Assembly (NCBI RefSeq): GCF_000143535.2 | Contig: NC_037314.1 | Location: 2,232,001 to 2,296,000, forward strand | From: Botrytis cinerea B05.10 | Taxonomy: Eukaryota > Ascomycota > Leotiomycetes > Helotiales > Sclerotiniaceae | Direction: 5' to 3' | DNA: 64,000 nucleotides | Program-made: the position numbers and the translations under genes | Shown: positions 9,713 through 55,173 of the stretch, piece after piece | How the letters are laid out: each line of letters begins with the position of its first letter | How positions within the stretch are numbered: position 1 is the stretch's first letter | The notes under the pieces: generated by a model | The model's database searches: none | The model's input: the letters and a program-made list of their open reading frames with translations, nothing else | What the model was told of the DNA's origin: nothing

Positions 9713-12555
9713 CTATCTAATCCCTTGAGGTTGTGGTAACCTCTTTCCATCTAGAAATTGCCTTGGGGGTCTCTGTTCATAATAAGGATCAGGTTCTTGT
9801 CTCCTTTTTCTTTCTTCGTATTCTGCTCTTTCTTCTTCGCTTAGACTGAATGCTTTCTTTAGCCATCCAAATGCGCTTCTCTTCTTTTTGACTTTCTTTC
9901 CATCTTCCATTGTGACGGTCGTCATATCGCTCATAACACTCATTCCCATACGGCTTGGTGCCATTGATCTTGATAACCCGCTCGGCACACGCTCGTGGTG
10001 ATGCATCGGAGCTGCAGTCCATGGTCTTTGTAATGGTGAATGTGGGGATGCGTTAACGGGGCGAAAAAATTGCTTTTCGGAGTGAGGGGATGGGATGAAA
10101 TCTCTTGTTAATATGGGTGGCGGAATCTCACGTTCGCGACTTGTTAAAACTGGTGCAGAAATTGCCGAAGAAGGAGATTGAAATGCCGGTGATGGGAGGT
10201 GTTCTTGTATCGAACGAATCGCAATTGGAGGATCTGATTCAGAGCAGTATGCCGAATCGACTCCACGAGATGGAGGTGAATCCTTCACTAGTTCGGGGTG
10301 CCTGGGAATACTTAAAGGTCCTGATCCTTTACGCTCTTCTCTTTTGCGGATTTCATTGTCACGATCCCTGCTCCTTTCATCTCTATTTCTTCGCTCTTCT
10401 CTGTTTGACTCCCTACTACGTTCTTCTCTACGTTCTTCCCTGCGACGTTCTTCCCTGTTTGACTCCCTACTACGTTCTTCTCTACGTTCTTCCCTGCGAC
10501 GTTCTTCCCTGACGCGTTCTCGGCTACGCTCCTCTCTAAGTTGCTTTTCTCTCTGACGCTCCGCTCTATCAGCCGATAAATCCAAAGGCTCAATTCGGCG
10601 CTGCTCGGATCTTTCACGAGGACGAACCACCGTATCAGGCTTCAAATACAGATATGGATCTACTACTGATTCCGCAACTGAAGTGATTCGTGGGGCGGAG
10701 AGTAATTTTGGAGGGGGTTTCAAAGTATCGTTATCAGTTTCGGTTTCCTTATTCTTGAAAGAAAAGCGCTTTCGAAGAGATGGTTTTCTCTTGCCTTCCG
10801 GGGCAGATTGGAGGACAAATCCTTGGGGAATTTCTCTTCTTGGAGAAGTTTCTGGAGAAGCCTTGGGTGAGGTTTTGGGCGAGGTTTTGGGCGAGATGTT
10901 GATCGAAGGTTTGGGTGAAGGCTTAGGTGAGGGCTTCGGTGAAGGTTTTGGTGATGGAATTGGGGAATATGTGGTCGGCAAAAGTAATGGGGAATAAGTT
11001 GTCGGAGGCAGCATCGGAGAGTAAGTTGTTGTGGGGAGAATCGGGGAATAAGTGGTGGCGGGAAGGACTGGAGTCGTTGTAGTAAGAACTGGAGTCGTCG
11101 TAGTAAGAACTGGAGTCGTCGTAGTAAGAACTGGTGTCGTCGTAGTAAGAACTGGTGTCGTTGCGGGAGGTATTGGGGAGTAAGTTGTTGGAGCAAGAAT
11201 TGGAGAATACGTTGTTGGAAGAAGAAGAGGTGAATATGTGATAGGTTTGAGAGTATATAACAGTTCAGGTTGAGGTTCAGGTTCGGTTTCACTCTCAGAT
11301 TCTGGCTCTGGTTCCGGCTCTGGTTCTGGCTCCGACTCTGGTTCCGACTCTGGCTCCGACTCTGGCTCCGACTCTGGCTCTGACTCTGGCTCCGGGGTTT
11401 GCTCTCGGTCTTGTATCAAGGCAATTTCTGGCAATACGGTTGAAAATGCTGGAGTTGTAGGGCTCGGATCGCTGGGAAGTTCTTTTATCATGGAAGCTCG
11501 AAGATTGCGAGATACTGGAGCAGCTGGTGCTTGTATAGGAGACGAATTATTGAACTACTCATCGTTAACCAAGAATGACATGATTGACCTTGCAAGCTTA
11601 CTCTTGACTCCCGACTTATTCTGCCCGCTCTCCGATCCATTTCTGCCACAATACTTCCTAATTGACCGAGAGAAACTCCCAGATGATTACCTTTGGTTTG
11701 TAACGAGACATAAGCCTTATGCCAACCTTCTACATTTCCACACATTGCGTCGAAGACTCTCTCCATGTTGGGTCGTTGTTTTCGCCATGTCCGACTATCT
11801 TTCTGCCCTGCCAGGTATATTGTGAATTCCCGACAAGCATCCATTCCTTGCTGCGCATCGAGAACAGTGTCCTTCATGGCTGCCGTTGTGCGTGCAATGA
11901 CGTGCTCGATGCGTTCATTGCCACTGACGATTTGCGACCTAAAAGCTCGATCTTCCAACATGGAATCAAAAATGGCGAGATTTTGTAATGGAAGTTTCAA
12001 GTGCTTTAATCTCTCCTCAATATCACTTTGTGCCAAGTCGAAATCCTCCAGCGTCATCTCTAAAAACCCATCTACCTCATTCACATGGCCCTGTAATATT
12101 GACATGACCTGTTCTTCATCTCGAGCGATTCCATTGAGGAGTAGATAAATGCCAAAGGATATTTGTGCCATCAGTTTCCACAATTCATGGTATTTTTGAC
12201 CTGGTTGCCTCTGCCATCGCAAAGCATGTGTATCTTCGGAAACATCCTGATCAATTAAGATCTTTCGTCGGGTCGCTGCGTCGCCGATCTTGGGTGCTGT
12301 TCGAGCTGTGTCGCTAGCCTCTTGCATCGACTCTGCAAAGGCACCTTGCATGGAACTTATTGGATGTTTTGGCACCATGGGATTTTTTGCAACCTCGTTG
12401 ACTTTTTTGACTTCTTTGACATGGTGCACTTCCTTCATTGTATCGTTATTTAACCTCGTGTTGTCTAATCGCATTTCGAAAAGTGAATCATCATCAGGTT
12501 CGAGAATAATCGGAAAACCGACTTCTTGATCAGAAGAAGAGTCGTAAAAGGCCAT
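9713..12555 (-). CDS. Large low-complexity protein with helical N-terminal domain, unknown function
   Basis: Two exons, 12555-11602 and 11554-9713, joined in phase 0 by intron 11555-11601 (GTAAGC...GAGTAG, branch GTTAAC); 931 aa. I chose the ATG at 12555 ('CAACCATGGCC', strong context); in-frame sequence upstream has only a TTG. Residues about 105-318 form a predicted helical domain without a catalytic motif that I recognise. The rest is disordered: Pro-Glu-Ser-Glu repeats (about 373-417), TTYSPI and TTTPVL repeats (424-514), KPSP repeats (523-560), and a charged REERRREERREE segment (650-710). Near the C-terminus is a basic amphipathic block, 'KKKRSAFGWLKKAFSLSEEE' (about 875-895), which might bind membrane or act as a nuclear signal. 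The fold resembles many fungal scaffold-like proteins; function is unknown. Confidence 0.75.
10400..11400 (-). repeat. Tandem coding repeats in the 931-aa protein
   Basis: Several unrelated in-frame repeat families sit side by side: a 6-base PE/SE repeat at about 11281-11396, an 18-21-base TTTPVL and TTYSPI array at about 10975-11235, a KPSP array at about 10855-10965, and a near-exact 57-base duplication of the REERR block at about 10405-10515 (the plus-strand text 'ttctctacgttcttccctgc' recurs). All preserve frame, which suggests ongoing slippage under coding constraint. Confidence 0.7.
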
Positions 12556-13211
12556 GGTTGCCGCAGCCTGCCTACTTGAAGACTTATGCAAGAATTGATA
12601 GTCCTACATGGGTTGATTCAATGTAGCGAGCGCCTCTTAGCTGCATGTGAATATTGACCAGATTCTTGGTATCCACGGTATTGTAGATGAGGTAATATAC
12701 TTTTGATGCAGTGCGCACCACTGATGGTGTACGGCAGCGCTTCTAGAAGTCCACAATTCGGACAATACGAGCAAGCAAAAGATTGCGGTAGGTGCAAGAC
12801 CAGGAAGATGGAGAAAAGGTACCTTTCCTCAGGTGTGACAATCCCAATCCGTCGTGATCTAGTCTACCCTCCCCCCTACAAATGGTCCCTAGTCCACCGA
12901 GGAGGTGTCTGTGTCAGAGTCCACTGTCTACTTGCCGCAGTAGCGTTGAGAAACGGGTGGGCAGTGGGAAAGGCTATCGATAATAATCGCACAAGGCTTT
13001 GGAGGGAAGCGAAGAAGATTTTAGTTCGAATTTGGGTTCATCCTTTCACTATTTATTTTAAGTCAAGGGGACCATGCGCGGGACGAGATCGCCTTTGATT
13101 GCGGAGGTTTTTCGTTTCAAGTCTCGATGTCGCGAATTAAAACAAATGTGCAGCGGAATTCGAAAGAGGACGAAAGGGAAGACAGCAAGGAATGTAAGAT
13201 TTGAGGACTGG

Positions 13212-28007: not shown

Positions 28008-29895
28008 GATGAAAGAAAGTTGCACTGGTATAACGGAACCGTTAAAAAGAGAAAAGCAGCATCAAAACAGATCTTGAGGACTTGAGTCCCGTTATATGAA
28101 AATTCATAATGCGATACTCTTGCCCGCGAGTCAATGAGGCGGCTGGATGGGGTACAAGATCTATCACACACATCCCTCCATTGTTGAGGGGTTTGAATGA
28201 GGATTTTCGGACATAAGCATTGTGGATAGCACGTCAATGACTTTTATCAATAGACGAACATATGCCGGGATTGGCCTTTAAGTTCCACGTTACGGTCGTA
28301 TGGCCAATCATAGGAATTCCACCGAGCTGGTAGTTGAAATTCTCCGTAATATAAAGAAAAAGCAGGCGATCCGTCAAACTAAGGGGGGAGACGTGCGTCA
28401 AGACCCCGCTTGCTAGCTGCTGATCCTCCGAAAATTAGATCAAGCCACAGAGGAAGGTGCCCAGTGCGCAGTGCATTTCTGGTTGGACGCCGGAGCTACA
28501 GAAAACCAGGCACGCGATTTTTTCCATTGTGGCCTTTTCTGTAATGGTGGCCGAAGCTATAAAAGCTACTTTCCTGATCTTTGTGCTGGTGGTGTTGAGT
28601 GGTTCAACAATTCCGATAAGTGCGAACCGACCCGAAGCTACCGTTCAATGCCGCAATGTTCTGTTTTTCATGCCATGACTCGAGTAAACGAGAAAGAGCT
28701 CTGGACTAGGAGTCCTCTAGAGAAAAGATATGAAAACGCCAGTAATTTTCGACGTGGCTTGGCGAAAGAGGCGAAAGCGGTTTCGGAGTCTATCCAAATT
28801 TTAAATGACTTATAAAGGAAACGATGTGAAATATAGTCGAGACAGGACACCTGTATCCAATTCAAATCGAGTTTTATTGGTACGTCAAGTACTACCCTGC
28901 ACGCAGGGAAGCATCAAGATTTGAACGAATTGACACAAGGCTTGATGAAGTTCGACCACTCGGAATATTTACGATAGAGTTCAAATATAAACGCCCGGAA
29001 GATTAATGATAGATCTCGAACTTGAACCCTTTAAGTGTTAAGTTTGTGGCAACTGATTCTAGAGACTCATGAATGCGTCGGCCTTAGACGTACACACGTG
29101 GCTAATCCACTGGGCGGACAGGGCAAGACTATTTTGACTTCCGGCACTGAGATGCACTGGTCTAGACCTGTCAGCTTCTCGTTCCTACAAGACTAAAACT
29201 CCCTGCATAACACAATAACTCGGTGTCCATAGAGTAGAGTTGAGGTTCAAGAAGCATAGTGGGAGAGCTTAAGCTCACCACAACCAATTCATGAGGCGTC
29301 AACACACCATCCGTGGGAAATTTTAGTCAAATGCTTATACAATCATGGGAAGCTCACTGATGACATACATTAAATTAACAACCATATTCTTTGGTACATC
29401 TCCAACCACCTTTTTGACAGTAAATTCTTTGTCAAGTCAAAGTGTTCCAATGTCCCCAAACAGTTCTGGAACTCTCTCCAATGCTTCCGTGGTTCAAGGA
29501 GAAAAAGGGGGGAATAAACATTTCAACATCCATATAGAGCTGAGAAATAACAGGATTGGCGAAGTGTAAAAGAAAGGAGACAGAAAATCAACTTTCGTTT
29601 GCAATGCACTTTCGGTACCAGCACGTGACAGCGCGACTTGCTTCTTATTCATTACCACCCTTCACCTTGGTCACCGAGAAATTTCTACAGAAAACACTTA
29701 CCTTTCCATTTTCTTCCCCACGACTCAAAAAGGCACTGAGTATCTAGGCCAAGCGCACATTTCGTCTTCTATGTTTTAGATAACTTAATCTCAATCTTAC
29801 ACTTCAATCAAACAACAAATCAGTAATATTATTGAATAAATCTCGACGCGATTTATTGTGGCTTGAGATTTCTTGAGATTTCTTGTTACTTAATG
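28008..29895. other. Divergent intergenic region
   Basis: About 1.9 kb without a supportable gene. Short frames at 28457-28815 and 29345-29747 lack motifs. The promoters of the rhodopsin-domain and first DUF7918 genes should lie at the ends. Confidence 0.4.
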
Positions 29896-31225
29896 ATGGC
29901 CGTCCTCGAGAACGTTCGTGGGGTCAAAGTTACAGTATGCACCGATGACCAAGTTCTCCAAGAGTATGACGACGACGAGCCTGAGGATGTCCCAGCTGTA
30001 GAGGTTGGAGGATATGATAGAGCTTCCAAAACGGTTTCCAAATATATTGAAGCGACCACCGGCAAAGCGTTTTATATCAAACTCGAGATAACCAAAGCAT
30101 ACAAACTTGACTCTCCGATTGTTTCCTTTCATGTTTTTGTTGATGGGATTAAAGTTGTTTCGAAACACGGCGGCAAGAAAGACATTCCTCTGTGAGCATC
30201 CCAATCTTGAAGGGCAGCTTTCTCCTGGAGTCCTCCGTGATGGGGTACTCCCTGGTTGAATGGCTATGATTTTTTTTCGATTTCCTATGCTTATAGATTA
30301 ACCTTCTATCTAGGACTATGGAAGTAAAAGGTGTCAAAAATGAGCTGGATAACAGGCAAGCTTTCATGATGCCATTCAAGTTCGGCGAAATAATCACAAG
30401 TGATTAGACGTTGTTTCTAGAAGAATTCAGCACCTTCTTACTAACCTTTTCGAAGGCACCGATGATTCGAAATTGGCATCTTCAAAAGAAGATGCAACCC
30501 GGCTGAGTGCTGTTGGAGAGATCATGGTAAAAGTTTATCGTAAAAGTCAAGAGCGTCCATCGGCTAGCAGAAATCGCCTTAGGATGAATCTTGCAGTTGA
30601 TAAATCAATGCTGGTTCACGAAAAGGCGCTCAAGGGCCGAGCTATGTCGCACGGTACTGTGTAAGCATCAGCCGCATACCAAGATTCTGATAGACGATGA
30701 ATATATTCTAACGAATAAACTTACCTTAGACTAGGAGCTCCTCAACCTATAATTGCAAGTCGTCACTTCCGAACGAGCTTCCTAGACGGGAAAGACTATC
30801 CAATCGCTATATTTCAATTCAAATACAGGTCTAAAGGTTAGAAACACCCTGTAGCAAGTTCATAGAAGTTAACAGTAGTCGCAGAATCACTCAAGTCTCT
30901 CTTGATACTCGAGAGAACCCCAGAACCATCCCCCTCTCCACCTCCTGCTCCAGTTTCAAATGGTGCTTCAGGACCGTTTGACTTTGAGAGCCTTGATGCA
31001 ACCCAGAAAGCTAAGCTTCAGGAGTTTCTAGGAAACTTAATGGTGTGTTCAATCTATCATCTCTCGCACCACTGCTAACTATATCTCTACCAGGGAAATG
31101 GAGCTCAATCCAAAGGAGAGAGAAAGATCAAGCGGGAAAGAGAGGAAACTGATTCTAAGACCAACAAGCGATCAAAAAGAGGCAAGCGTGTGGAGATTGA
31201 TTTGACAGGAGACAATTCGGACTGA
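29896..31225 (+). CDS. DUF7918-type protein A
   Basis: Six exons: 29896-30191, 30314-30399, 30456-30660, 30730-30836, 30885-31042, 31094-31225; 327 aa. A second ATG sits one codon upstream at 29893. It begins 'MAVLENVRGVKVTV' followed by the acidic 'LQEYDDDEPEDV'. 'ASKTVSKYIEATTGKAFYIK' matches the core of fungal DUF7918 proteins, a beta-rich domain of unknown function. The last 110 residues are disordered: a Pro-rich segment, a short helical 'TQKAKLQEFLGNLM', a basic cluster (KRSKRGKR, likely nuclear signal) and a terminal 'VEIDLTGDNSD', which looks like a SUMO-interacting motif. It is a paralogue of the gene at 32699-33894, with matching introns except for an extra 122-nt first intron. Confidence 0.8.
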
Positions 31226-32698: not shown

Positions 32699-33894
32699 TC
32701 ACGCTTCTTCGTCAGAACTTGCAGTAAGATCAACAATCTCCGTTGTTCTGGATCTCTTTCTTCGTTCTTGGTTTGAACTTCCTTCACCGTTATCCCTCTC
32801 ACGCTTGATTTTTCTCTCGGGGGTATTAGAAGCGCGACCCATCTACAAAAAGTATTAGCTTATGTATGCCTTAATATCACTATCACTATACTACTTACAG
32901 CAATTCCTTCGTTGCGTAGAAATGCCTTGAGGCGCTCCTTTTGAGCAGCGCTCAAACTAACAAGATTGATATCTGGCGCAGGATCTGGTGTTGGGCTCTC
33001 TTCCGGCTCGGGGGTTCGCTCAATAATCAATAATTGCTTGAGAGATTCTATGTCTATATCAGCAATGCCTTCGAGTTCTGTTGCAGTCTGATGTACCTTT
33101 GGACCGATACTTAAACTTGTAAATAGCTATGGGATAGTCTTCGCCATCAAGTTTTGTTAGTTGGACGTAATTCTGTGCAGGAATAATAGTCTCCGGTGAA
33201 TATCTAAGATCGTAAGTTGACCCGCGAGTGCATAATCATGGCCTAACATACGAAACACTGTGGGATTTTGCTTGGCCTTTCAGCGCCTTCTCATGAAACT
33301 TTCCGGGGATGGCCCGATATTCATATTCGCTAGGTCTTGATGGTGTGGATTCAGATCCACGCCAGATCTTGATCTCGATAGTGCCAACTTTTTCCGCCTT
33401 CACCTTGTCTTTGCTAAGGCTCGAGAGCCGAGCTTCATCACTTGCTTCGCATATTTAGCAAATAAGTCGATAGAGTTAACAATATAGTGGAAGAACGTAC
33501 ATATATCAAGTTCAGAAAACCTGTAATGTTGCCTCGCATACCGTTCTGCGCTGCCTCCTGACATAGGATAAAAGATGAGTGGTCCGTCGAAAGTGAGAGT
33601 AGATTCTAGATAAGGGTACTTAGCCACCTTCCCTTCGGCATAATTACCGTCCGCATACACCTTTATGAAGAGGTTTGGTGAATCCATCTTGAAACCAGAT
33701 GATATATGGCATTTAATACCGAAAGCCGCACCAGTAACAGCCTCGATGTATTTAGCCACTGTTCTTGAACTTTGATATTTGCCGACCGGACCTGGTTTAA
33801 TTTCTACCTCCTCGTCGTCATCATACTCTTCAAGTCTCTCTCCATTGACTTCAAAATAAAATTCCAGGCCTGGAAGTTTGTCGAGAACAGCCAT
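32699..33894 (-). CDS. DUF7918-type protein B
   Basis: Five exons: 33894-33501, 33444-33252, 33203-33097, 33047-32899, 32842-32699, with introns of 48-56 nt; 328 aa. The ATG at 33894 gives 'MAVLDKLPGLEFYFEVNGE', parallel to paralogue A. Shared core: 'LEEYDDDEE', 'SSRTVAKYIEAVTGAAFGIK', 'HEKALKGQAKSHSVS', 'DGEDYPIAIYKFKYRSKESL' and 'LLIIERTPEPEE'. The C-terminus has a basic nuclear-type cluster ('QERRKRSR') followed by 'TEIVDLTASSDEEA', very close to a canonical SUMO-interacting motif with an acidic flank. Exon 3 has exactly the same length (107 nt) and phase as exon 4 of A. Function is unknown. Confidence 0.8.
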
Positions 33895-34668
33895 TTTGGG
33901 AGTTGAAATCTTCGACACGTTCGAGGTTTGCAGTTGAATAGAAATGTATGTACTGTAAACAATCCAAGAAGTCAGTTGATCTTCCGAAGCTAACGGCAGG
34001 CTCAAGTATTGAAGAATATTGTGGGTAATTGCGATACATACTGATCGACTTGCGATGCTAATATTAGTGATGATTAATTAAGCTGCCGTGTATAATCGAA
34101 ACGACAACTTGATCTTGAATGCCTGTGGAACTGTAGGACTTTTGTCAGGAAGTAAGTTTCCGACAACAAAGCGATGAATATTCTAGTCGAAGGAAAGGTT
34201 TTGAGGAATCTCGTCAATATTTCCTGTCACGGCAGTCCTCCAAGTTTGACCTACCTAGAGTTAGTGAGCTTGAAACACGTGATCTACCCCACACTGGACG
34301 TTAATAGCTAGTGCTTAATGTCGTCCCAAAACTGAATTCAGCAACTAATTATGTTCTACCCTTCCCTTATTGTATGATATTCGCCTTTTTTATGATATGT
34401 GCTCTGAGTGAGACACACACATGGTCTGTAGGTCTGTTCTTTCAGCCGACCGGTAAAGTTGTTTCAAAGTGACAGATGAGGCAAATGCCGGCGTGTTTGT
34501 CTCGTTTGCATTGCATCCAGAGCAAACAGAAAAGAAATTGCATAGATTCACTAGAGCTTTTAGAGCTTTCCCCTCTCTTATCTTGCTCTATTTTGGTGAA
34601 ATCATGTTCTGGACCACTAATTTCTTGAAACTTTTCTGCTATTAACCTCCGTCAAAATATTGCAAAAC
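33895..34668. other. Divergent promoter region
   Basis: Lies between DUF7918 gene B and the MYND-like gene. The frame of gene B stays open upstream to 34005 but without sequence like paralogue A, so I treat that part as 5' UTR or intron. Confidence 0.5.
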
Positions 34669-41156: not shown

Positions 41157-42345
41157 GGGTCCGCGGATGGGCTGACTGAGACTGACGATATGATGATGCT
41201 CTGGGTAGGAAACTGGGGAATACTTGCGATTTATCTCAAGCCTGAATTTTATGCTTCTGGTAGCGCTGGTTCCGCGTGGAATATTTGAGACCTTTTTTGA
41301 AAATCAACGAAGATTTACCAAGATTTTTGCTTTCTTAATACCTCTCATCATCAGGTCTGGTGGTCCACACTAATAAGTGAGATGGATAGCCTTTAATTAT
41401 AGTATTAAAAACTTTGATTCTTTGGATTATTAAAGGAATTTCCCAGTGACCAATGGGGCCTTTTTCTTTTCTCACAAATAGATAGGTTGTGAATGTAGAA
41501 TTCCATTTCTCAGATAATTAAGAATGATATAATTATCCCCTAGAAAAAATCAGGACTACGTGTTTTTAGATGATGTTGATGAACTTACCATGTAATGTTT
41601 GATACACGGTTTTTGGACTCACTTAATGATTACTATATCTTTTCACACATTATTGAATGGGTTAATAACTCATGTCGATACAATAGGTATTGTGTTACAT
41701 TAATAAATAATCCACAAATTGATAACTTTAGGAATCTCTTGGAGATAAAGTAAGATGACGTGCTGACATGTTCTACCCTAGACCTTACTATTTTCTCAGC
41801 ACTGTTCCATTGAGAAAGGAGCCCATGTTTGAATAACAATAGTTCACAGATCTTTCCAATTTTAACATGGCGAGTGAGTGGTGGTTAGGGCGAAAAATTT
41901 TGTCTACATGCGAGGGTATCCAGATATCAGTCACATAAGAACAGCAAATTAAACTTCAATTCAACATAGAAGGAAATCGAAGAATTATAGTAACAAGTGG
42001 AATATTCTGTTTGGTCGCTGCTTAAAAAATCAAAAAGGCAAGGCATTTATTTGTGCATGCAATATCATCATGAAAATTGATTAAAAATAATGTCATTTTT
42101 TGGTTATACTTCGAGTATAAGTTTTGAATCCTAAGTTCTATCCTAAGTTATATCATAGTGGGAGTACAGCTTCCGAGACTCGCTGTTTGTTTCTGATGGT
42201 TCTCAGTGGCAGTTCCGGTCAAAGCTGCATAAGTTCTAGACACACAGGTCTCTGTCCCGGCACACAATTATTCCCATCATTCTATCCATCCTTGCTAAGA
42301 CATGGATTGCCAAGATGGCAATGCACGATCCCATTCATCAGACCT
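41157..42345. other. Convergent intergenic region
   Basis: AT-rich, about 1.2 kb, with no supported gene. The plus frame at 42124-42513 is antisense to the P450 3' end. Confidence 0.5.
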
Positions 42346-44105
42346 TCAATTTCTAACCAACTTGACTCTGCATGGAAGTCCATCACTTGGATGAGCAGCT
42401 CCAGACAGAATTTGGTAAGCCCTATCTCCCTCGATTGTTCTCGGACCAGCCTTTGGATGAAGAGTATCCCACTCCTCATACACACTCCTAATTTCAAATT
42501 CTCTCGAAGTTAAAGCAAGAAAAACCTTCATCTCTATCATCGCAAGTTCTTGGCCAATGCATTTACGTGGTCCAAACTCAAATGGTCGGTAGGTGCCTTT
42601 CCTGGGGTATAAACGGTGATCTTCTTCAACGAGCCAGCGTTCTGGAAGAAATTCGTTTGGTTGGGGCCAGTATAGAGGATCACGTTGAATAGCGTGCGAG
42701 TTTGACCATACCATGAATCCGTCGGTGGGGAATTGAAGTCCGTCGGATCCCGACATAAAGTAGCCGGGCTCACCGCTACGAGCACTTGAAGCAGAGGGAT
42801 ACAATCGTAGGGTTTCTTTTGCAACAGCCATAGTATAAGAAAGTCGGTTCAAAATGTAAGGATCTTCTTCGATTTTTCTTGCAGCTTCTTTGTGGTCTGG
42901 GCCTAGAATCATATCATGCTCGGCAATTAGCAGCTGACGGGCCTTGGGATTTGTCCAAAGTAGATGAAGAGCATAGCACATGGTACTACTTGTTGTATCA
43001 TGACCGGCAAAGATAAAGACTCTTAATTGAGATGTGGCGATGTCTCTAAAAGCGGTGTCCATGGCGTTAATGGTGTGGTCTCCAGGCCTGCTAGCAAGAT
43101 AGTTATCCAGAGCGAGGTCGATGATTGATCTGCTGCGAGTGCCTTGGATGCCTTTACCATCAACATTTCGGCGTTTCAAGCGCATATCCAACTCTCCCCA
43201 AATGTATTTTACCATTTGACGACTGTTCCACCAGTTCATGAAAGGGCGAATAGGATTATATCGTTGCAATGGATTTACTTCGTGACCAAATGATAACCAA
43301 TCGAGCTGATTGAGCAATGCAGAAACAAAATCGTTTGTCTCGAGCTGCGAATTCAAGTGCGTGTCCCTAAAAGCTCTTAGAACTTGTTCCAAATGACAGT
43401 GACTTCAAGTGGTATACTTACAACGCCATCCTACTGATAATATCCAGGTTTAATCTAGTTGTTAAATGATCCATGATTACGATATCCGATTTCGAGGCTG
43501 CCTTTCTCAGAATCTCGCAGAATACGGACATATCCTTCATCAAATCAGGAACTAAAGTCATAAGATGACCAGCGCTGAAACCTGGATTAAAGATAGATCT
43601 CCATTTCCTCCATTCTTTGCCATCCATTGAGACCAAGTCGTTTCCACCTGTCATGGGCTTCAGGTATTCACGCATGGCATGGAACTTAGGGAGCGGGTGT
43701 GATTGAGTCATCTGATAGGCTGCATCTGGGCCTACAACAACCAGAATCTCACCACCAAAGGGCCATGTATCGAGGTAGAACAGCGGGCCAAGGTTAGGAT
43801 AGCGGAGTTTGATCTGATGTGGAAGGACATGACGATGAATATCTCCAGGTAATTGAGATACAATTTCGCCCATCAATTTCAAATGGCCAAAGATAGGGTG
43901 ATGCGGAGGCATTGGCTACAAGACTTGGTTAGCTAGAAGATCATAAAGAGTGAGATTGACATTAGCAATAACTTACCAAGCCATCCTTCTGCATACGTTG
44001 AAACTTGCGACGAACGCAGTATAGTTCAATAAAGAATTTAGTAACTTTGATACCAACTATCATGAAGCAAGCAAGAATAAGAAGACGCCAGCCTGTGAGA
44101 CCCAT
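42346..44105 (-). CDS. Cytochrome P450 monooxygenase
   Basis: Three exons: 44105-43977, 43915-43422, 43366-42346; introns of 61 and 55 nt; 547 aa. Residues 3-25 are a hydrophobic signal anchor, placing it on the ER. After the proline hinge ('PMPPHHPIFGH') come all the class signatures: oxygen-binding 'AGHDTTS' (328-334), 'KETLR' ExxR (about 391-395), 'FLPERW', and the heme loop 'FEFGPRKCIG' with Cys477 as iron ligand. The sequence resembles the fungal P450s often labelled StcB-like, but I cannot assign a CYP family or substrate. It lies 2.6 kb from the repeat precursor gene and points the same way, so it may belong to the peptide cluster; P450s occur in ustiloxin-type clusters. Confidence 0.92.
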
Positions 44106-46750
44106 AACGAAGTGATTATTGAGGAACAACATCTTTTCACGAGGCCAGGTAAGAAAATTTGTGAAGTATCAAGCAGAGTGCAAAGTAATGAGAAATTTCT
44201 AAAGATTGTATGCAAACTGAATGAGTGTGAGGCGATATGAAAATAATTAGAAAGTGGGGACATGGATGACTTGAGCATACGACAGTTGGTTGGCACTAGA
44301 GAAGGGATTCTTGTAAACATATAGAGCGTATCTAGGTATTAAAGTAGCTCGCTGGAGGTTCCGTACCATGAACCGAATTCCGTTTATAAGATTACTGCTC
44401 AAGATTTTAAATGAGCTAGCTGATACAACTTGAGTGAATACATCGAAATTTTCCGCGCTAAGAGTAAATGAATGACGCTAGTACCAATTCTCATAGAAGT
44501 CTACTTCTTCAAAACATAGACATTCTTCTCAGAGGGTCATATCTAGCTCAAAGGCTATCCCTGTACATAGAATAGACAACTTCGAGGTTCCTTCTTGCAA
44601 AATTTCAATGGCCTAGGGCTGATATTAAATTCGCTAAAGACTAGCTCTAACCAATAAGCGAAGTATTATGACCAGCTCCCTAATCTCATTCATCGGAAGT
44701 TCAAAGGATCTCTAAATTTTTCCCTCTCACATGGAGTGAATACATGAGGGGAAATTGGGTAGTAATATATAATTTCGAGTGAAAGGGTCCTATTATTCAT
44801 CTATTGCAGAGAAACTGATATTCTCCTTTACTCCGTTTGATCCAACTTGGGCTCGATCTGAATAGCTCAGATTTAATATGAATATCATTTCTTCGGGGCC
44901 TAGGTAGTATCCGAAAGATACTATCTACATGTGATATAATTCATCATTAAAGTTGAGTGAATAATACTCATTGGTCATCTAGATATTACTGATATGGCCA
45001 ACCACTGAAGGTGAAATGCTGAAAATTGGACAGTCCACTTGGAGATTATATGGTGAGTAAAACGTTTCGAGTTTGGACCAGGAACCATCGAATAGACCTT
45101 CTGATCACCTGTGCTCGGGATAAGAATGCACTGAATGATACAAAAGATAAGACTTGCAGAAGGAAGTGAATATGAATATCGGGACATTTGTTCAAAGCGA
45201 TTTGCTATTGACGGAATATTTGTATATACTTGGGAAACCCCATCCAATGACTCGAACCGTTAATAAAACACACACTTCAAATTACAAAGGAAGCTGCGGC
45301 GTAGCAGTTTTATTAGCAGGAGGTTGCCAGCAGAAAAAAAATACTCTGACAAATTCAAAGGACATTATTTTTTCATGGGGAAGTGATATACACTTGTAAA
45401 CTACTATCGTAACCCAATATTCCAACTCGGAATGCTTCTAGAAATATTCAACTTTGTGATGAGGTTGACGTTTTACACAAAAAGGTCTTGAGACGATGAG
45501 TGACCGATGTCTAAGCATAGGGTAAAAGGTGAAATTAAATCTTGAAACGGGATCGAATAATTGTTGCTTGCTACTATCTTATATGGTTGAAAGTTTACAT
45601 CAATTGATTGTTCGCTATCTACTAAAGGAATGGCTTAATATATGCGTACCAAACACAAGTGTAGGGGCAATTCCATCGCTTCCTTGAGCATAGCAAAACT
45701 TTGTACTCTTTTCTGTCTGCTACTTTGCAAACCACACAGGATTTATCAAGACTGTCATCAAAAAGACACCCATCAAGCTTAAATTTACAACCAGCATCGC
45801 CCGAAACACTCTTATCAGACTGCTCCCAAGAACGAACTCCTGAAGCATGCAGCCAACTTTGTCTCCAATGGTACGGATGCTAATCTCTGTCTGACTGTCT
45901 GAAACGTGGAAGTCTCTGGCACAGATATGTATTCTGAAGCATAGGGTAGACTTTCAGCTAGCAGGTGAATTGTACTCAAAGATCTTGAAGCATGTTGAAT
46001 GGTTTGCTACGCACCTGGTAGGATGCATAGTACACACCTATGGAATATCCCAGCCTCAGAAATCAAGGCAGATAAGTTTCCCACTAGTGTATGTAAGCAA
46101 CGTTGATTGGCCTTTGGCATACCCCACAACACGTTGCGCGCTACGCGACTTTGAGAGCTCAACGAACATCTGTCACTTCACTTGTCATTCTTGATCTCGA
46201 TTACATGCATTCAACTAAGACTTCACGACTAAACGAGTAATCTCCAAATCATAAGACGGGAAGCTGTTTATAAATAGCATACGCATATGTCAAGGGCTGA
46301 TCTGCGTGCGCAGAATGATTTGCTTAGTGGTAGATCAAAAGCGGTGTAACAACATTTACCTCCGTCGATGACACGTTGTGTGTCAAAGGACTACTGAAAC
46401 ACATACCAAGTCTATTACGGCGAAAAATCATAACAGATCTAGAAGAAAGATCTGGCAAACTGATACAACTACGCTGGAGTGAAATCGGATAGCACGCCTT
46501 CGATCTGAGAATGGAAAAGTACACGAACAGAACACATTCACATTCAAAAGATATAGATTGAAACCGTGGAAGGGTTTAAATAATATGAATGCACTACTCG
46601 GGAAGTGATGAGCTCAAAAAGCGAATCTCTGAACCGCAAAACCCAGTTTTATATTTAACATCAGACACATTCAGTTTCCTTCGCACTTCTACTTTGCTCA
46701 TCCCGATCAATGACATCCCTTCAATTGTAATCCACAACATCGTCAGAAAG
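44106..46750. other. Intergenic region between P450 and precursor gene
   Basis: About 2.6 kb, AT-rich. I searched it on both strands for a DUF3328/UstYa gene (HxxHC type motifs) and found none. Frames at 45154-45399, 45701-45883 and 45970-46194 have no features. Confidence 0.45.
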
Positions 46751-47525
46751 CTAGTAATCTCCATCATTTCTCTTCTCTTCTGTAAGAGCTGCGTCCCGTT
46801 TGGTAATAGCTTCTTCCAAGCTAGCAACATCTTCGTCCCGCTTGTACTCCAAGGCGTCGTCGTCTCTCTTGTACTCTAGGATCTCGTCATCTCTCTTGTA
46901 CTCTAAGGCCTCGTCATCTCTCTTGTACTCTAGGATGTCGTCGCCTCTCTTGTACTCTAGGATGTCGTCATCTCTCTTGTACTCTAGGATGTCGTCATCT
47001 CTCTTGTACTCTAAGGCGTCGTCGTCTCTCTTGTACTCTAAGGCGTCGTCGTCTCTCTTGTACTCTAAGGCCTCGTCATCTCTCTTGTACTCTAAGGCGT
47101 CGTCGTCTCTCTTGTACTCTAAGGCCTCGTCATCTCTCTTGTACTCTAAGGCGTCGTCGTCTCTCTTGTACTCTAAGGCCTCGTCATCTCTCTTGTACTC
47201 TAGGATGTCGTCGCCTCTCTTGTACTCTAGGATGTCGTCATCTCTCTTGTACTCTAAGGCGTCGTCGTCTCTCTTGTAGTCCAAGAGAAGATCGCCTCTT
47301 TTGTACTCTAAGGCATCCCCGCCTCTCTTGTACTCAAGGGCATCTTCGCCTCTCTTGTAATCTAGGAGAAGATCGCTTCTCTTAGAGGGAGAAGAAGGGT
47401 TCTCGAATGCTATTCTAAGTCTCAGGGTATGTTCAAATTTCGAGAGTGGTTGATATATACTTACAAATCGCACGTCCTGAGGTATAGCCAACGAAGGCGA
47501 TGATGATGAGCTTCGAGTAATGCAT
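46751..47525 (-). CDS. Secreted Kex2-processed repeat precursor peptide (RiPP precursor candidate)
   Basis: Two exons, 47525-47465 and 47409-46751; intron 47410-47464 (GTAAGT...AATAG) in phase 1; 239 aa. Residues 1-20 ('MHYSKLIIIAFVGYTSGRAI') are a signal peptide. Residues 22-31 form a short leader ending in Lys-Arg. Residues 32-211 are exactly 20 nine-residue units, consensus D-D-D-(A/I)-L-E-Y-K-R; Leu5, Tyr7, Lys8 and Arg9 are invariant. A tail with two more Lys-Arg sites (residues 224-225 and 233-234) ends in 'NDGDY'. Kex2 would cut after each KR in the Golgi, releasing 20 acidic heptapeptides after Kex1 trimming. Fungal RiPP precursors of the ustiloxin/phomopsin (dikaritin) group have this architecture. 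A tyrosinase gene is divergent 1.4 kb away. The product is not known; an unmodified secreted peptide is the alternative. Confidence 0.85.
46838..47377 (-). repeat. 27-bp tandem repeat array, 20 units, coding
   Basis: Exactly 540 bases = 20 x 27 encode the nonapeptide units. Position 4 is Ala in 12 units, Ile in 6 and Leu in 2. The outer 5' units (1-4) are more divergent (SDLLLDY, GEDALEY, GGDALEY, GDLLLDY) than the internal ones. Identical neighbours and alternating DDE/DDD units indicate recent expansion by unequal exchange. Confidence 0.95.
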
Positions 47526-48890
47526 AGTGAATAAAGGTCGACTTGGTTTAGAAAATATGGGAAGTGGAAAATTTTGTTTGTAATTCGATTGAAGTGTTCG
47601 AGTGGAATAAGTGAATCTCAGAAGTTCTGCTGTTGGTTACTTTAAATCAACGAATTTTTCTCGAGTGAAAAATAGTATAATCTCAATTTCAGTTTGAAGA
47701 AAGCTCTATATATTATAGATTGGGCGGTGTAAAATTGTCAATCGGTTGGAAGAAATCTTTCTGTGCTGCATCTCTGCAAGACAGCATGCTGCTAGTCAGT
47801 ATGTTTTTCTGTGTATCATACACAACGAATCAGTTTGCCACTGTTTAGAAAATGAGAGAAAACTTGGATTCTCAAATCTATTCATCCTGCGAAGACTCGC
47901 GTATTGGAACACATGCAACACAGCAGTCAATGTCTTGATTTACATGTCTTACGATACCGAGACTATGGTGGGTCTCTTCTGTCAGACAGTACAACAAAGC
48001 CTTGAGGTCCATCTTTTCTTTTTGTCAGATTCGGGGGTCTACTTCTTACTAGAGAAAGACGATTACTTTCCCGAATCCCGATCTCTATCTCGGATCTTAG
48101 GGAGATACGGTACCACACTGAATACTATACGCACGCTAGTCCCGCTGATAACAATACGGGCTAAGTTAGCCTCCAGGGCGCTTATCATGTTTCATTTCTA
48201 CCAAAACCCCAAACTCATGCCTAATCTAATATCCAGTCTCTACTCCTCCAGGAATATTGCCAAGATTCAATATAGGCACTCAAATCTTTCTCACACGATC
48301 TTCTTCACAATACGGTTTGCAGAGTAAGATTCCAGATAGATATGAAGTTATCTATATCTTGAAACGGGGGAAGTTTGTGGTTGATCATACCTACAGGGTG
48401 TCAACTCTGTGACTACCTCTAGTTGCAGCAACGATGCATGCAAGGCAACTGAAACACACGGACTACAATTTATGATGCAATGCGTGTGATGATCTCTATC
48501 CGAAGACAAGTATGACTAGAGAATGAAATAGGCGAAAATGGTAGGTAAAGCCTTTTGATCGACAAATTAGAAAGTTACCAAAAGTAATAAAAAAAATGAC
48601 AGCTGCTGAAACTTCAAAACACGTGCGTTTTTGTTATGTAGCAACTATTGAGTTTCATTACATTTTGATGACGCTTAAAATTAGTCTATCCCCGAGAATG
48701 GTCGATCAATGACCTCACGTTGGAGAATTTTCTTTACACTCCAAGCAGGAGCATAGATTCCAGTGAATTCTGATGGTCACCAAAGCTTTAGAATATTGCG
48801 AAATATTGAGTGTTACTATCTAAATTGTTTATCGATTCAGTCTCATAAGTTAATACAAGCACTGCCATATCTCGATATTCAAACCTAAGT
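47526..48890. other. Divergent promoter region of the precursor and tyrosinase genes
   Basis: 1.37 kb between two divergent genes. The 193-codon plus frame at 47746-48327 begins with TTG, has no domain and no good ATG, so I do not call it. A shared control region is likely; I see no obvious palindromic operator. Confidence 0.45.
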
Positions 48891-50173
48891 ATGCTGAATA
48901 TCTTTAGACAAAGTCAATATTCACCAGTACTCTCTGATATCGAGTCGGAGGAGAAAAATCAGAGGGCTCTACAAGGTCAACAACTTCGATCTCCAAAACT
49001 AATTTCCGCGGTGGTTCTTGGTGCTTTAGTTTTGGGCGTATCTTTTTTCAGCGGTGTCATTCTCGAGAATCACTTCCTTCGAAACCAAGCCCTAGATCTT
49101 TATCAGAACAGAGAGCGTTGCAGCAGTCCCTCGACGCGCAGAGAGTGGCGGTCATTTAGTGCGGCAGAGAAACGGAATTATCTGGATGCTGTCCAATGTC
49201 TAAGAGAGACGCCATCAAGATTACATTCAGATTATTCATTGTACGATGATTTTCCGTGGGTCCATACCAATATTGGAAATAACTGTGAGTGTTCATTATA
49301 TTTCGCTTCAACTGGGCCAAGAACATAATCGCTGATGGTTTCTGGAGCTCACAACGCCGCTGCGTTTGTTGCGTGGCACAGATACTTTTTACATAGCTAT
49401 GAGAGAGCTTTGAGGGAGGACTGCCACTACACAGGACACTTGAGGTATACTTACTAGCATCAATTCCAGTCTTTTTAAAAGCAAAGAATGTTGACATTTA
49501 TTTGTGCTGCAGCTATTGGGATTGGTCCCTTGATTGGGAAAACATAACAAACTCCCCTGTATGGGACAATGAACTCGGCTTTGGCGGCAACGGAAATTCA
49601 AATGCAGAAGGTATTGACTCACATGGGATTGGTCAGTGTGTTGTTGACGGCCCTTTTGCTCTACTATCCGTCCCATTCATCGGTTCTAAACACTCTCGGC
49701 ACTGCTTATCGCGCTCCTTCAACACAACCGATAGCTCGGAATCATTAACGCTCCAGCCTTACATGCTGGATCAACTGATGGATACAGATGATTACGAGAA
49801 ATTTAACCTGGGTCTTGAAAATGCTGCACATAATTCAATTCCCCATATAGTTCGAGGGGACTTCTCGAGGTTTACCGCTCCATATGGTGAGGGTTCTTTC
49901 TATTCTCAAACCTTTTATTGAACTAATACACTTGCTAACTTCGGGCCAGATCCTGTTTTCTTTCTTCATCATACACAGCTTGATCGACTCTGGTGGTTGT
50001 GGCAGCAGAAAGATATAAAGAATCGTTTACATCAGTACCGAGGTGCTGCAGCGTCTAAATCGCTTGAACAGGCCTCAGTGAAAGATCTTCTGCCTATGGG
50101 AAAACTGATTAACGATATTGAGGTCATGGATATTCTTGATACGGAATCGGGAATATTATGTTATAACTACTAG
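48891..50173 (+). CDS. Membrane-anchored tyrosinase (UstQ-like)
   Basis: Four exons: 48891-49284, 49348-49444, 49513-49886, 49950-50173; introns of 63, 68 and 63 nt; 362 aa. A 35-residue cytosolic N-terminus precedes one transmembrane segment (about 37-58), so the catalytic part faces the secretory lumen. The CuA ligands are His125 ('WVHTNIG'), His133 ('SHNAAAF') and His142 ('AWHRYF'), with the normal nine-residue spacing of the last two. CuB has 'AHNSIPH' and 'DPVFFLHHTQLDRLWW'; the first CuB pair is His-x4-His, not the canonical His-x3-His. Type-3 copper tyrosinases hydroxylate tyrosine or oxidise o-diphenols; in ustiloxin biosynthesis UstQ modifies the core Tyr. The neighbouring precursor ends every unit with Tyr, which fits a joint role. 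Confidence 0.9.
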
Positions 50174-53100
50174 GTTGAACACATTCATTCCACCGAGTTT
50201 GATGATGAATGCACTAGTTCCTATGTCCAATTTCACTTCTAAAAATACTATTTAAATGTTTGTAGAATGTCTCAGGAAGTCTTTCTATGAGTATGTCTTC
50301 CAAAACTCTCCTCTGTATAGTGTACCATATTTGGTGGTCTTTGTGAGAAAACTAGACATATGTATATGTTACGTCGGAATAAGTACTTCCTACATCTACT
50401 CTCTATCTGAAGAGATATTACGGTATGGGAAAGACTAACTTCACGCACGGTATGATTGTTTTCTTGGCCGGGCATCTGGGTGAAAAGATAGGAGAGTAAA
50501 ATAAGGTCGACAATGTCAAATGTGGACTCGCTTGGAGCGCTATGCAGAAGAGAACCCTACATATTTTCGTAATTAGCGGAGTAGCGGTAGCACTGAAGCG
50601 GGATATAGTCATTCCCCGAAGAGCTCGCAGCACGAGGAAAAAACAAAGGAACGTTTTACAGGCGAAGCGAAATAGGAAATGCTGTATTTTCGTGATGGTA
50701 ACTAGTAGTGGATTGTGTGACTGAATCAAAATGCAGAGAAGTGATAGATCGCTTATTGCTACTTTGAACTAGAAATTTCTCGCGCCCGGGACATTTTCAA
50801 GACTTTCCCCAGGTGAAGTGAGCTCTCATGGAAAAACTCACGCCCTAACGGTATACAGGATTCAAGGAAAACCAAACAGCGAGCACCTATAATTAGACGA
50901 ATCAGCTTTGCATGTCGGTACGTAAAGTTGGCTTGGTAAGTACGCGACACAGGAGAACATTTTTATCCTTAAAGATTCCATTTTAGATATCACAACTTGT
51001 CTACACATTTATTCTTCAACACTCTAAAGAGAAGATTCAAAATACGAAGCACCATCAATAGATTACTTGGTCCTTCTACCCCACCGTTGAAATTTCGTAT
51101 TATTTCATTCTGCTCACAACTTATCGATGCCACATACTATATTTAATACCCATCAAATTGTTCAATCATAAAACTGTCGTCGTTTGCCCTCTCTTCCTTT
51201 TCTATTCTTCACACAAACACCGATCAGACTACAGCCACAAAACGACGCATCAAGACAGCTTCGTTGTTAAACGAGACTTATGATTACATCGTTTGAGGGT
51301 TTGTCTCCTCAGATCTCAAATACTGTAAAGAATCTAGCTAGTAGCTCGTACAGCTGGCGAAACCTCAGGCTGTGTAATCGCAGTCCCACTTGCAGACAAT
51401 CCTGCTGTATAGATTTTCATGGTTGAAGCTGGAGCTAGCAGTAGTACATATCCTGGTATTGCAATTCCTGCTGCGTAAGAACAAAATCCCAACAAATCTA
51501 TGATGGTTCTACGTGTGACATAACATGAATGTCCTAGAGCTTCACGGATACTTGGGACTGAGGCCAACGTGAAAATTAAGAGTGGGCCCTGCGAAGAGTT
51601 CGAAAATCGTCAGTTGCATCTTGCGAGGGGAGAGTGGTTCTCTTGAACATTCTAATTTTGGCTTATGAGATTCAATTTTGAAGTAAAGGTTTCTCGGTGG
51701 AGATAGTGGTTGAAATGGTACATTGGCCATTCCGAGAGTGGACAAGACTACGATGGTTATAGCCTTGAAGGGTGAAGTGGAGATGAGATGTTTCAATACA
51801 TGTCAAAAGTACGAATCCATCAATCATTGTAGCTTATTTATTTACGATCGAGACCCCCCTCCAAACAAGTTTGGTACCGGCAAAGTGCTCATGGCTATGT
51901 GGATACTGTTCAAATATTCTCGCGAGAAAATCATGCTATAGCTACAGACTATATCACAAGTCTCAGGAAACAGTTAAGTACCCCTCTCCCCAAAAACGAA
52001 CACTCCCATCGATCGTCTTGGTCTCGAAACTGACAACTTTGGCGCGCTACGAGCCAGTGATGTTCAGAATTTAGAACCTGATAGTCTGGAGTCTAAACGA
52101 GTAGATTTAAAGGTTCCACATAGTAACTGAAAGAAACTTTCGATTTTGTTGGTCTTGTACCGCGTTAAAGATTTGGATAGTCTGTCGTTGTGGCAGACGA
52201 GATATTCGCTTTTGAGGGCTGGCTTGGAGACTTCAGAAAATGACAAGATTACCTGGCCATCACTATGAGTTAGATATAGAGCAAATATTGTGAGGGGAAA
52301 GTAGTGTTCTTGGGCGATTCGCAAGCGAATGTGACCAGACGTATAGAACGAATAGAAGAAGTACACTTACCCAATAGTCCGTTAATTAAGTGTTTTTTCC
52401 GACACCTGGAAGATCTACTTGGCTTGGATTCGAAGCGTTTCAACTTCTTGTTTGGCACCGATTCTAGATCGGAGGGATGCTTGGACTTCCATTTGTTCAT
52501 GATGAAGTGATAAATTCTTTGCGAGCTTTCATTAAAGACTTCTGTCCAGTGATGTGATATTTTGCACAAGACTCCGCTCTCCAGATTAAATATTTCAATC
52601 CAACAAATCTCTCACCCACACACCCTCCCATCTAATTCCAGAATATAGAAGGCTGTAGTCCTCAATACGTATCCAGATACTCTTCCCAGGAGGCAGGTAT
52701 ACATTTGCAATGGGTACGATACTTTTTACGGCACGATCACGAGGTAAAGTGAGTATCAAGTCAAGTGACCCTACAGGGAATCATATAGTGAACCATCGAT
52801 ATCCCAAGAGTCTCTTGAATGCAGTTATAGAGAGCGCAGTGTATCGTAAGGCGAGTAAGATTGCAACGAGAAGTACAGGAACTAAGAATATCATGATTAG
52901 ATCCTGGCCGTGGTCTGGAATCACCACGTGTTTACTACTCGAAAAGAACGAGTGGTTCTTATTATCAGATCCAATACAGATAGATACATGTAAGACTCCT
53001 CTATCCGGAAATCATCCCAACTTATTTTCCCATCCATCATCTCATTTCATCCGCACGCACACATTCCCAACCAAGCGACTCAAAACCCCCATCCATTCCT

Positions 53101-55173
53101 AAACTAAACCACCACCCACCAAAACACCCAAGAAGAGAAGTCCCAACAACCCTCCAGCCATACCAGACGCACAGCCAAAAATCCACGGGATATCATCACC
53201 TTTCTCCAAGTCAAGTCGCAGATACGATACAAGCGCGATTTCCTCCCATGATCACTCAAGGAGATCCCCAAACACCCATTCATTGAATCGCGGAAAACTC
53301 TGCATATCTTATTTCATCTCATCTCATCTCCTCACATCAAATACCCAACCCACAATTCATAGTGTGCGATTCCAATTCCATATCCAAACAGCGAATGTAC
53401 ATACTCGTTTCGTTGATACACTCACACACACCAATCGATGCACGAACAGATTAGATGCGATAAAGCAAAAATGGATTTCTTCGTAACCAATATCTATCAA
53501 AGTGTCTCTTTAATTATTCTTGAGATGTGACGAGAAGATGTGATGATGTATTTATTACAGGAACAGGATCCATGGATAATTAATTACATATATGAATCGA
53601 GAAATCGATATCCAACAATTGAGAAGAAAAAAAAAAAAATTTGCCGTATATTGTGGGAATGGAGACATGTCCTTCTTGTGGGTTCTGGATATTCGTGCAG
53701 TGGTGGTGGTAGGTACACATTATATTACATTATATTACATTACCAGCGAAAGGAAGGAAATACATCCACATGAATTTTAGTCACTACCTACCTACCTACC
53801 TACCTACCTACCTAACATATAAACATTTAATACACACATCCCATATTAATCTCCAAAGACACACACTCACAACAAGTCTTCCACTTCTTCCTCGAGCACT
53901 CCATACTTACATACATACATCCATACATACATAGATAACTTTGCATCTCCTCCCTCCACTCCACTCTCCACTCTCCACCCGTCTCAAACCACAAAATCAT
54001 ACAATCGCATGTTCCAGGTAACTAGTATAAATACCTACACACAGCTCTTCCTACAGTATACGTATACACTATTACCAAGTCTCCCCGTCGCACGTAGCAT
54101 CTTATCCGAATCTTATTCTTCCCTCCTCTCTTCACATGCAGAGCCTTTCTTTCTTCTCGAGAGCCCGACCCAAGACCGCTCTTTTATATTCTCTATTTCA
54201 CTTCTGCAAAAACTCTCAGATCTTCAGAGAGTAGAGTGCTGAATTGTGCCTCTGCTCAAACTCTACATATAGCTAGCTCATCGCGTGCTTCTTCCCAATC
54301 CAATCCAATCCAATTCAACCCAGTCACATCACATCACATCAGATACATTCCACACAATCAAAACCCACACAATCCATACAGGTAAGATACATAAGATTAC
54401 ATTTTTCTATTCACATACAGACTACCAGCAAGACGCACACGCGCTCTACCTCTTCGTCCCATTCTCAGCACCGAATAAGAACACGAATATGATATGATAA
54501 TACAGCAAGCAACATATAAAGTGCAACAACCCAACAAGATAGATAGCTAGCTCGCCCCATCAAATCCCCCCCGAGTAGAATTTTTCCATGAAGCCCCCCC
54601 AAAAAAACGCCCAGATCTCGCTTTCGTAGTGCTTAGACTATGCAGATATACAATTCCTATAATGTGATGTAATATTTCCTCCCAAATATGATTTTTCATC
54701 CATCTATCATTCATTCATCCATTCATCATAAATGCCTCCTCAAAGAAACATGTCAGCCACGGCCAGAAGTAAATTTTTATATATTCTGCTCCTTTGCGTT
54801 GCGAACCCACCGAGACTTCCGTCATTCAGCGAGTATCATCGGAGATTCCCGATCTGAAGATCCCATATTACGGGGCTTATGAATGGCGGGCTCCTAATTT
54901 CTCGGGCGTAGTGATATTTCGTCGGGGGCATTTATCCTATTATCGCGATATCCATCCAGGATTCCACGCCCATCGGGCTCCAAGCAAAAATAATAACATA
55001 CAAAAATAGACAAAAACGCCCGTAATAATCATGTCAAGGCTGTGTCAGAATAGGAATTGATCCATCCACCTAAAAATTTGCCTAAAGATAGCCAGCCAAC
55101 GCCTAAATGTGGGTAACATACAACATAAAAGTCGTCAAGTCATTAGCTGGGGCAAGATCCCTCCAGTGTGAAC
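50174..55173. other. Gene-poor region
   Basis: Five kilobases without a supported gene. Minus-strand frames at 51334-51796 ('RRTIIDLLGFCSYAAGIAIP', hydrophobic) and 52064-52569 ('LKRFESKPSRSSRCRKKHLI') could be exons of a membrane protein, but the middle is full of stops and I could not build a consistent model. Microsatellites occur at 53786-53813 (CTAC) and 53905-53930 (CATA); 54300-54370 has TCCAA and CACAT runs. Confidence 0.35.
53786..53813. repeat. (CTAC)n microsatellite
   Basis: Seven to eight copies of the tetranucleotide CTAC in AT-rich noncoding sequence. Confidence 0.9.

Follow-up and report, generated by a model that had tools for sequence, protein, structure and literature searches.

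A tandem-repeat precursor gene on the minus strand at 46751..47525 of a 64,000-nucleotide stretch of the Botrytis cinerea B05.10 genome encodes 20 tyrosine-ending units separated by Lys-Arg (KR) sites, and it forms a head-to-head pair with a tyrosinase-type gene. The whole stretch, hereafter the window, covers positions 2,232,001 to 2,296,000 of contig NC_037314.1 (G000:C5:2232001-2296000); the genome comprises 18 contigs totaling 42,630,066 bases. We give roughly even chances to the proposal, drawn from sequence, that the gene encodes a Kex2-processed repeat protein (KEP) whose C-terminal tyrosine is oxidized by the adjacent membrane-anchored tyrosinase-type enzyme. The original prediction, made from the DNA letters alone, had located the precursor correctly while leaving its strand unstated, and had not included the neighboring gene. 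The repeat anatomy (20 units, 23 KR sites) gives good support to its claim of a precursor processed by Kex2. Its claim of a modified product gains from the tyrosinase-type neighbor and loses, as regards dikaritin-type modification, from the failure to find UstYa/DUF3328 on the contig or in the window. The features of the pair are as follows.

47465..47525, minus strand: precursor exon 1, with the start codon and a signal-peptide-like N terminus, MHYSKLIIIAFVGYTSGRAI
47410..47464, minus strand: predicted 55-bp intron, GTAAGT...AATAG, one among several open splice pairs
46751..47409, minus strand: precursor exon 2, with a spacer that closes with SKR, then 20 nonapeptide units that each close with YKR, a degenerate tail with TKR and EKR, and the stop codon
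46833..47364, minus strand: 27-bp tandem array of 19.7 copies, a single array in Tandem Repeats Finder
47526..48890, no strand: intergenic region of 1,365 bp between the divergent genes, with no notable repeats or motifs
48891..50173, plus strand: tyrosinase-type gene (PF00264) for 362 amino acids with an N-terminal hydrophobic helix; exons 48891-49284, 49348-49444, 49513-49886 and 49950-50173

Translation of the precursor starts at an ATG at 47525, and the spliced coding sequence of 720 nt yields 239 amino acids. The splice model was picked for the best donor and the usual fungal intron length, and several alternative donor/acceptor pairs likewise keep the frame open. The N terminus carries a hydrophobic LIIIAFVG and small residues ahead of a likely cut between SGRA and I, which by eye suggests a signal peptide. 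In the spliced product, 20 consecutive units of nine residues follow the pattern xxx(A/I/L)L(E/D)YKR, and the earlier count of 20 nonapeptides ending YKR with Leu5 and Tyr7 invariant was borne out: L5, Y7, K8 and R9 are each present in 20 of 20. The remaining positions vary within narrow limits, with D 14, G 5 and S 1 at position 1, D 18, E 1 and G 1 at position 2, D 13, E 5 and L 2 at position 3, A 12, I 6 and L 2 at position 4, and E 18 and D 2 at position 6. Without KR there are nine heptapeptide variants, DDDALEY (6), DDEALEY (4), DDDILEY (3), GDDILEY (2) and five singletons. The calculated monoisotopic masses of the neutral peptides are 839.3185 for DDDALEY, 853.3341 for DDEALEY, 881.3654 for DDDILEY and 823.3599 for GDDILEY. 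The 23 KR sites are spaced by nine residues in 21 of 22 gaps, the remaining gap being 14, and the tail includes one 9-mer without tyrosine. The 20 units exceed the minimum of 3 tandem repeats between Kex2 sites that is used to recognize KEPs, and their length is 7 residues without KR or 9 with it, so that, depending on the way of counting, they may fall short of Umemura's minimum of 8 (PMC7329392).

Alpha-type sexual pheromone precursors share this general architecture of a signal-like start and KR-separated repeats. Pheromone-type KEPs bear W motifs (PMC7329392), whereas all 20 units here lack Trp and Cys, and no MF_alpha domain match was obtained at E<=1. With neither that domain nor a W-bearing core, an alpha-type pheromone is disfavored, to the point of being exceedingly improbable.

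A second alternative is that the array is a non-functional or non-coding 27-bp repeat, open by chance in a minus-strand frame. Consistent with this, long frames stay open on the plus strand of the array too, and the synonymous share is 0.416 in the named frame against 0.411 in one antisense frame, which has 2 stops. As the synonymous share alone does not discriminate, the minus-strand frame was chosen for its signal-like exon 1, its intron and its regular in-frame KR sites, all of which speak against a chance frame. Within the codons of the four invariant residues, five DNA columns vary (13, 15, 24, 25 and 27) and every change is synonymous, the codons for L5 being TTA 10, CTA 7, TTG 2 and CTT 1. 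Such silent-only variation suggests that selection acts on the peptide rather than on a bare DNA repeat; drift of a bare 27-bp repeat would not predict it, yet such repeats do homogenize as well. On balance a non-coding array appears very unlikely.

The neighboring enzyme has a PF00264 match in the window protein itself. Its close relative from Botrytis elliptica, P0001, is of equal length and 88% identical over 100%, and predictions for P0001 gave one N-terminal membrane helix and fold matches to catechol oxidase. A tyrosinase-type neighbor makes the 20 tyrosines of the precursor plausible substrates. For the pair as a whole, we infer the signal peptide, the Kex2 and Kex1 cutting, the membrane topology, the substrate relation, the chemistry and the biological role. 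The precursor would enter the secretory pathway, where Kex2 would cleave behind each KR and a Kex1-type carboxypeptidase would trim the KR, leaving 20 acidic heptapeptides in nine variants, all ending in tyrosine. The divergent membrane-anchored tyrosinase-type enzyme would share the lumen with the precursor and might oxidize the C-terminal tyrosine to dihydroxyphenylalanine (DOPA) or a quinone, or form an oxidative link to the invariant leucine two residues upstream. That leucine is a candidate link partner, comparable to the internal Leu that pairs with the C-terminal Phe in victorin (PMC9233826). Oxidation to DOPA would add 15.9949 to the peptide mass and oxidation to a quinone 13.9793, while a crosslink would subtract 2.0157. 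The outcome would be a small set of related peptides, modified and secreted.

The points that weigh against oxidation by the neighbor begin at its copper site. The canonical motif of the second copper site (CuB) is H-X3-H-Xn-H (PMC11608171), and the window protein instead reads H-N-S-I-P-H at residues 270-275. The window protein was aligned with 120 of its 410 relatives (n=121; E<=0.001), and the following counts hold among the matches listed. The second CuB histidine (HB2) is missing in 120 of 121 sequences; at HB1+4, four positions after the first CuB histidine, 104 sequences have Pro and 1 has His. In 114 sequences HB2 is the sole ligand histidine missing, in 1 all six are present, and in 6 HB2 is lost together with at least one other; His227-Cys228 is invariant (121/121). 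Relatives on contigs C15, C3 and C13 of the same genome show HCLSR too and lack H-X3-H at CuB; in the relative on C10, only HCLSR was found. Lack of a canonical HB2 makes ordinary tyrosinase activity uncertain, and the site is possibly rewired, with copper bound differently or a ligand supplied from elsewhere. UstQ and PhomQ may share the HB2 loss and the His-Cys pair, to judge solely by the name that the source gives to P0094. A narrow literature search found no paper on the missing HB2 or the invariant His-Cys. If borne out by structure, HB2 loss across the family would mean that the "tyrosinases" here are a distinct sort of copper enzyme. In the Botrytis byssoidea relative P0002, Pro replaces the first His of the conserved LHH at CuB and YWYW stands for the conserved YWDW, which may mean decay in B. 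byssoidea.

Genomic context adds further points of the same direction. PF11807 (UstYa) gave 47 exon matches genome-wide and 0 on contig C5, which holds the window, and DUF3328 genes occur in 27 of 27 dikaritin-like clusters (PMC6514808). In a survey around 7878 KEPs, 341 tyrosinase genes lay within 15 genes, and they were not enriched around KEPs without DUF3328, showing no peak there (PMC7329392). A whole-precursor protein search returned nothing at E<=10 among 7996 scored candidates; in a local control, copies in which as many as 50% of the positions had been redrawn at random would still pass, so the scored candidates include no close relative of similar length. For the N-terminal 44 residues no candidate shared three words, and because the window's own precursor was unlisted too, this is weak evidence of uniqueness. 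Within the genome, a search for a second DNA copy found only the precursor itself, and protein-level matches were the precursor, the antisense of the array (E 9e-11) and, weakly, a site on C15 (E 0.019).

An alternative explanation is that the gene is a KEP releasing unmodified linear acidic peptides with signal, metal-binding or effector-like roles, the tyrosinase being unrelated and acting on another substrate. KEPs without a nearby DUF3328 gene are the majority (6120 of 7878; PMC7329392), tyrosinases do not gather around them, and the enzyme here has no canonical HB2. Against it stand the retention of tyrosine in every unit and the head-to-head placement of a tyrosinase whose kind accompanies UstYa genes at other sites of the genome. 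We regard unmodified peptides as a possible, somewhat unlikely outcome.

The 12 best UstYa loci supplied 15 open reading frame (ORF) fragments as further queries, of which two or more are probably spurious frames; their best E against the window was 0.037, compared with 1e-20 in control loci L024-L031. Paired HxxHC motifs were absent from the window and present in 3 of 7 loci tested (L024, L025 and L031), a test of incomplete sensitivity in that it overlooks L003 and L026, both of which have UstYa exons. Pfam is incompletely sensitive as well, since an ORF of L031 with two HxxHC motifs went unrecognized. UstYa matches lie only kilobases from two relatives of the tyrosinase, the one at C15:1390k being 56% identical to it and the one at C3:1780k 42%.

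A dikaritin-like pathway with UstYa encoded elsewhere and acting in trans would draw on the 47 exon matches on other contigs and on the cooperation of UstQ with UstYa and UstYb: ustQ, ustYa and ustYb are all needed for the first ustiloxin intermediate, and PhomQ is essential in that its knockout stops phomopsin production (PMC6514808). Known UstYa genes, when present, lie on average 3.09 genes from the precursor (PMC7329392), whereas contig C5 has no match, and the core here is without EDYxI, the core motif of ustiloxins and phomopsins (PMC6339444). Supply of UstYa in trans is judged improbable.

The stronger form of the tyrosine-oxidation proposal is a UstYa-independent class of fungal ribosomally synthesized and post-translationally modified peptides (RiPPs), a head-to-head KEP/tyrosinase pair in which the membrane-anchored, HB2-less His227-Cys228 enzyme with its rewired copper site would alone oxidize the C-terminal tyrosine of the 20 heptapeptides or crosslink it, possibly to the invariant leucine; this we consider unlikely. 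To our knowledge, the solo contribution of the tyrosinase in ustiloxin- or phomopsin-type synthesis is not settled. A natural precursor/tyrosinase locus without detectable UstYa would let the tyrosinase's own share be examined, and would do so in a well-studied plant pathogen.

Several other loci of the genome touch on this question. Loci L024/L025 (G000:C15:1384000-1403800) and L026 (G000:C3:1774000-1783900) hold tyrosinase relatives near UstYa matches without a recognized repeat precursor, and two repeat scripts recognized no KEP around any of the other tyrosinase loci, L024-L030. Protein P0041, labeled Botrytis cinerea, is 100% identical to locus L028 over its last 74 residues, and P0014, with the same label, matches L024 at 88-91%. 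Another repeat precursor, unrelated to the first, was seen at L003:3257-3518 and in L031 (G000:C15:681986-682573, minus strand, and 683076-683825, plus strand), with alternating KR/KK sites and units such as DAEPAEEATNYFYAVQKR. On one side it has a UstYa match (C15:680130-681037) and on the other the ORF with two HxxHC motifs, which makes this a locus of the UstYa type within the genome.

The core had been called unfamiliar, and the proposed comparison of the unit with known KEP motifs agrees so far as it reaches: no conserved motif listed in the relevant section of PMC6339444 corresponds to (A/I/L)L(E/D)Y, and the name Botrytis is absent from the main text of that paper. Novelty is weakened by KEP type G-5/P-1, whose genera include Botrytis and whose profile shows Y and several D (PMC7329392); DUF3328 accompanies 16 of its members and is absent for 19, and the type may contain the window precursor. 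The newness of the core thus holds against the main-text motifs compared, the supplementary KEP tables lying outside the comparison. No description of the precursor gene was found in the literature searched, whose scope likewise excluded supplementary tables, and Bcin05g06 gene names that occur in papers could not be linked to it.

Around the pair, one further gene is of possible relevance.

42349..43915, minus strand: gene for a cytochrome P450, separated from the precursor by 2.8 kb, with PF00067 in fragments 42349-43404 and 43421-43915

The P450 is a possible but unproven cluster member. A selective ORF scan of the window showed P450, short-chain dehydrogenase/reductase (SDR) and sugar-type transporter genes and no methyltransferase or S41 peptidase. 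For ten ORF fragments located from 44978 to 52611, Pfam found no family above cut-off; the NCBIfam matches were confined to prokaryotic models of tyrosinase type and scored far under the cut-off, no RNA family reached the gathering threshold in 42000-54000, and the plasmid collection yielded no match. Nothing notable emerged among promoter motifs common to both genes, the intergenic region having only short direct repeats; a sigma-70 scan there returned one perfect consensus, from a model unsuited to a fungus. The flank at 43950-46650 is single-copy and that at 50300-54300 has one 33-bp match elsewhere in the genome. Farther away in the window, a gene resembling cellobiose dehydrogenase (654-2948, minus strand) has a CDH cytochrome domain and a GMC oxidoreductase domain. 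At 9713-12603 (minus strand), long open frames of low complexity are rich in tandem repeats such as EPESEPES, TPVLTTT and REERREER and probably belong to one or two repetitive proteins. Two similar ORFs lie about 3 kb apart, at 29836-30195 (plus strand) and 33403-34077 (minus strand), the second with DUF7918 and the first alike by eye.

Compared with known systems, the precursor shares with KEPs (Le Marquer 2019, PMC6339444; Umemura 2020, PMC7329392) the signal-like start and the tandem units between Kex2 sites, while an adjacent tyrosinase without DUF3328 is a pattern that the available text of PMC7329392 does not report. The enzyme differs from the Aspergillus oryzae catechol oxidase (4j3p/4j3q) in its N-terminal membrane helix and in the Pro at the HB2 position, and has His227-Cys228 where Arg-Cys is aligned in that protein. 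Victorin and epichloecyclin precursors are similarly multicore and likely Kex2-cut, and pair an aromatic with a nearby aliphatic residue as crosslink partners (PMC9233826); in the window peptide such a crosslink is a guess and UstYa was not found, whereas those pathways are grouped with or near the dikaritins. DUF3328/UstYa is now held to be class-defining for dikaritins (PMC12048977), and by that test the locus would fall outside the class; its tyrosine is also the last core residue, directly before KR, and its core is not EDYxI. Membership in the dikaritins is therefore not supported, whereas a dikaritin-precursor-like working is: as in ustiloxin and phomopsin synthesis, a Kex2-cut repeat precursor with tyrosine in its core appears to be paired with a tyrosinase gene at the same locus.
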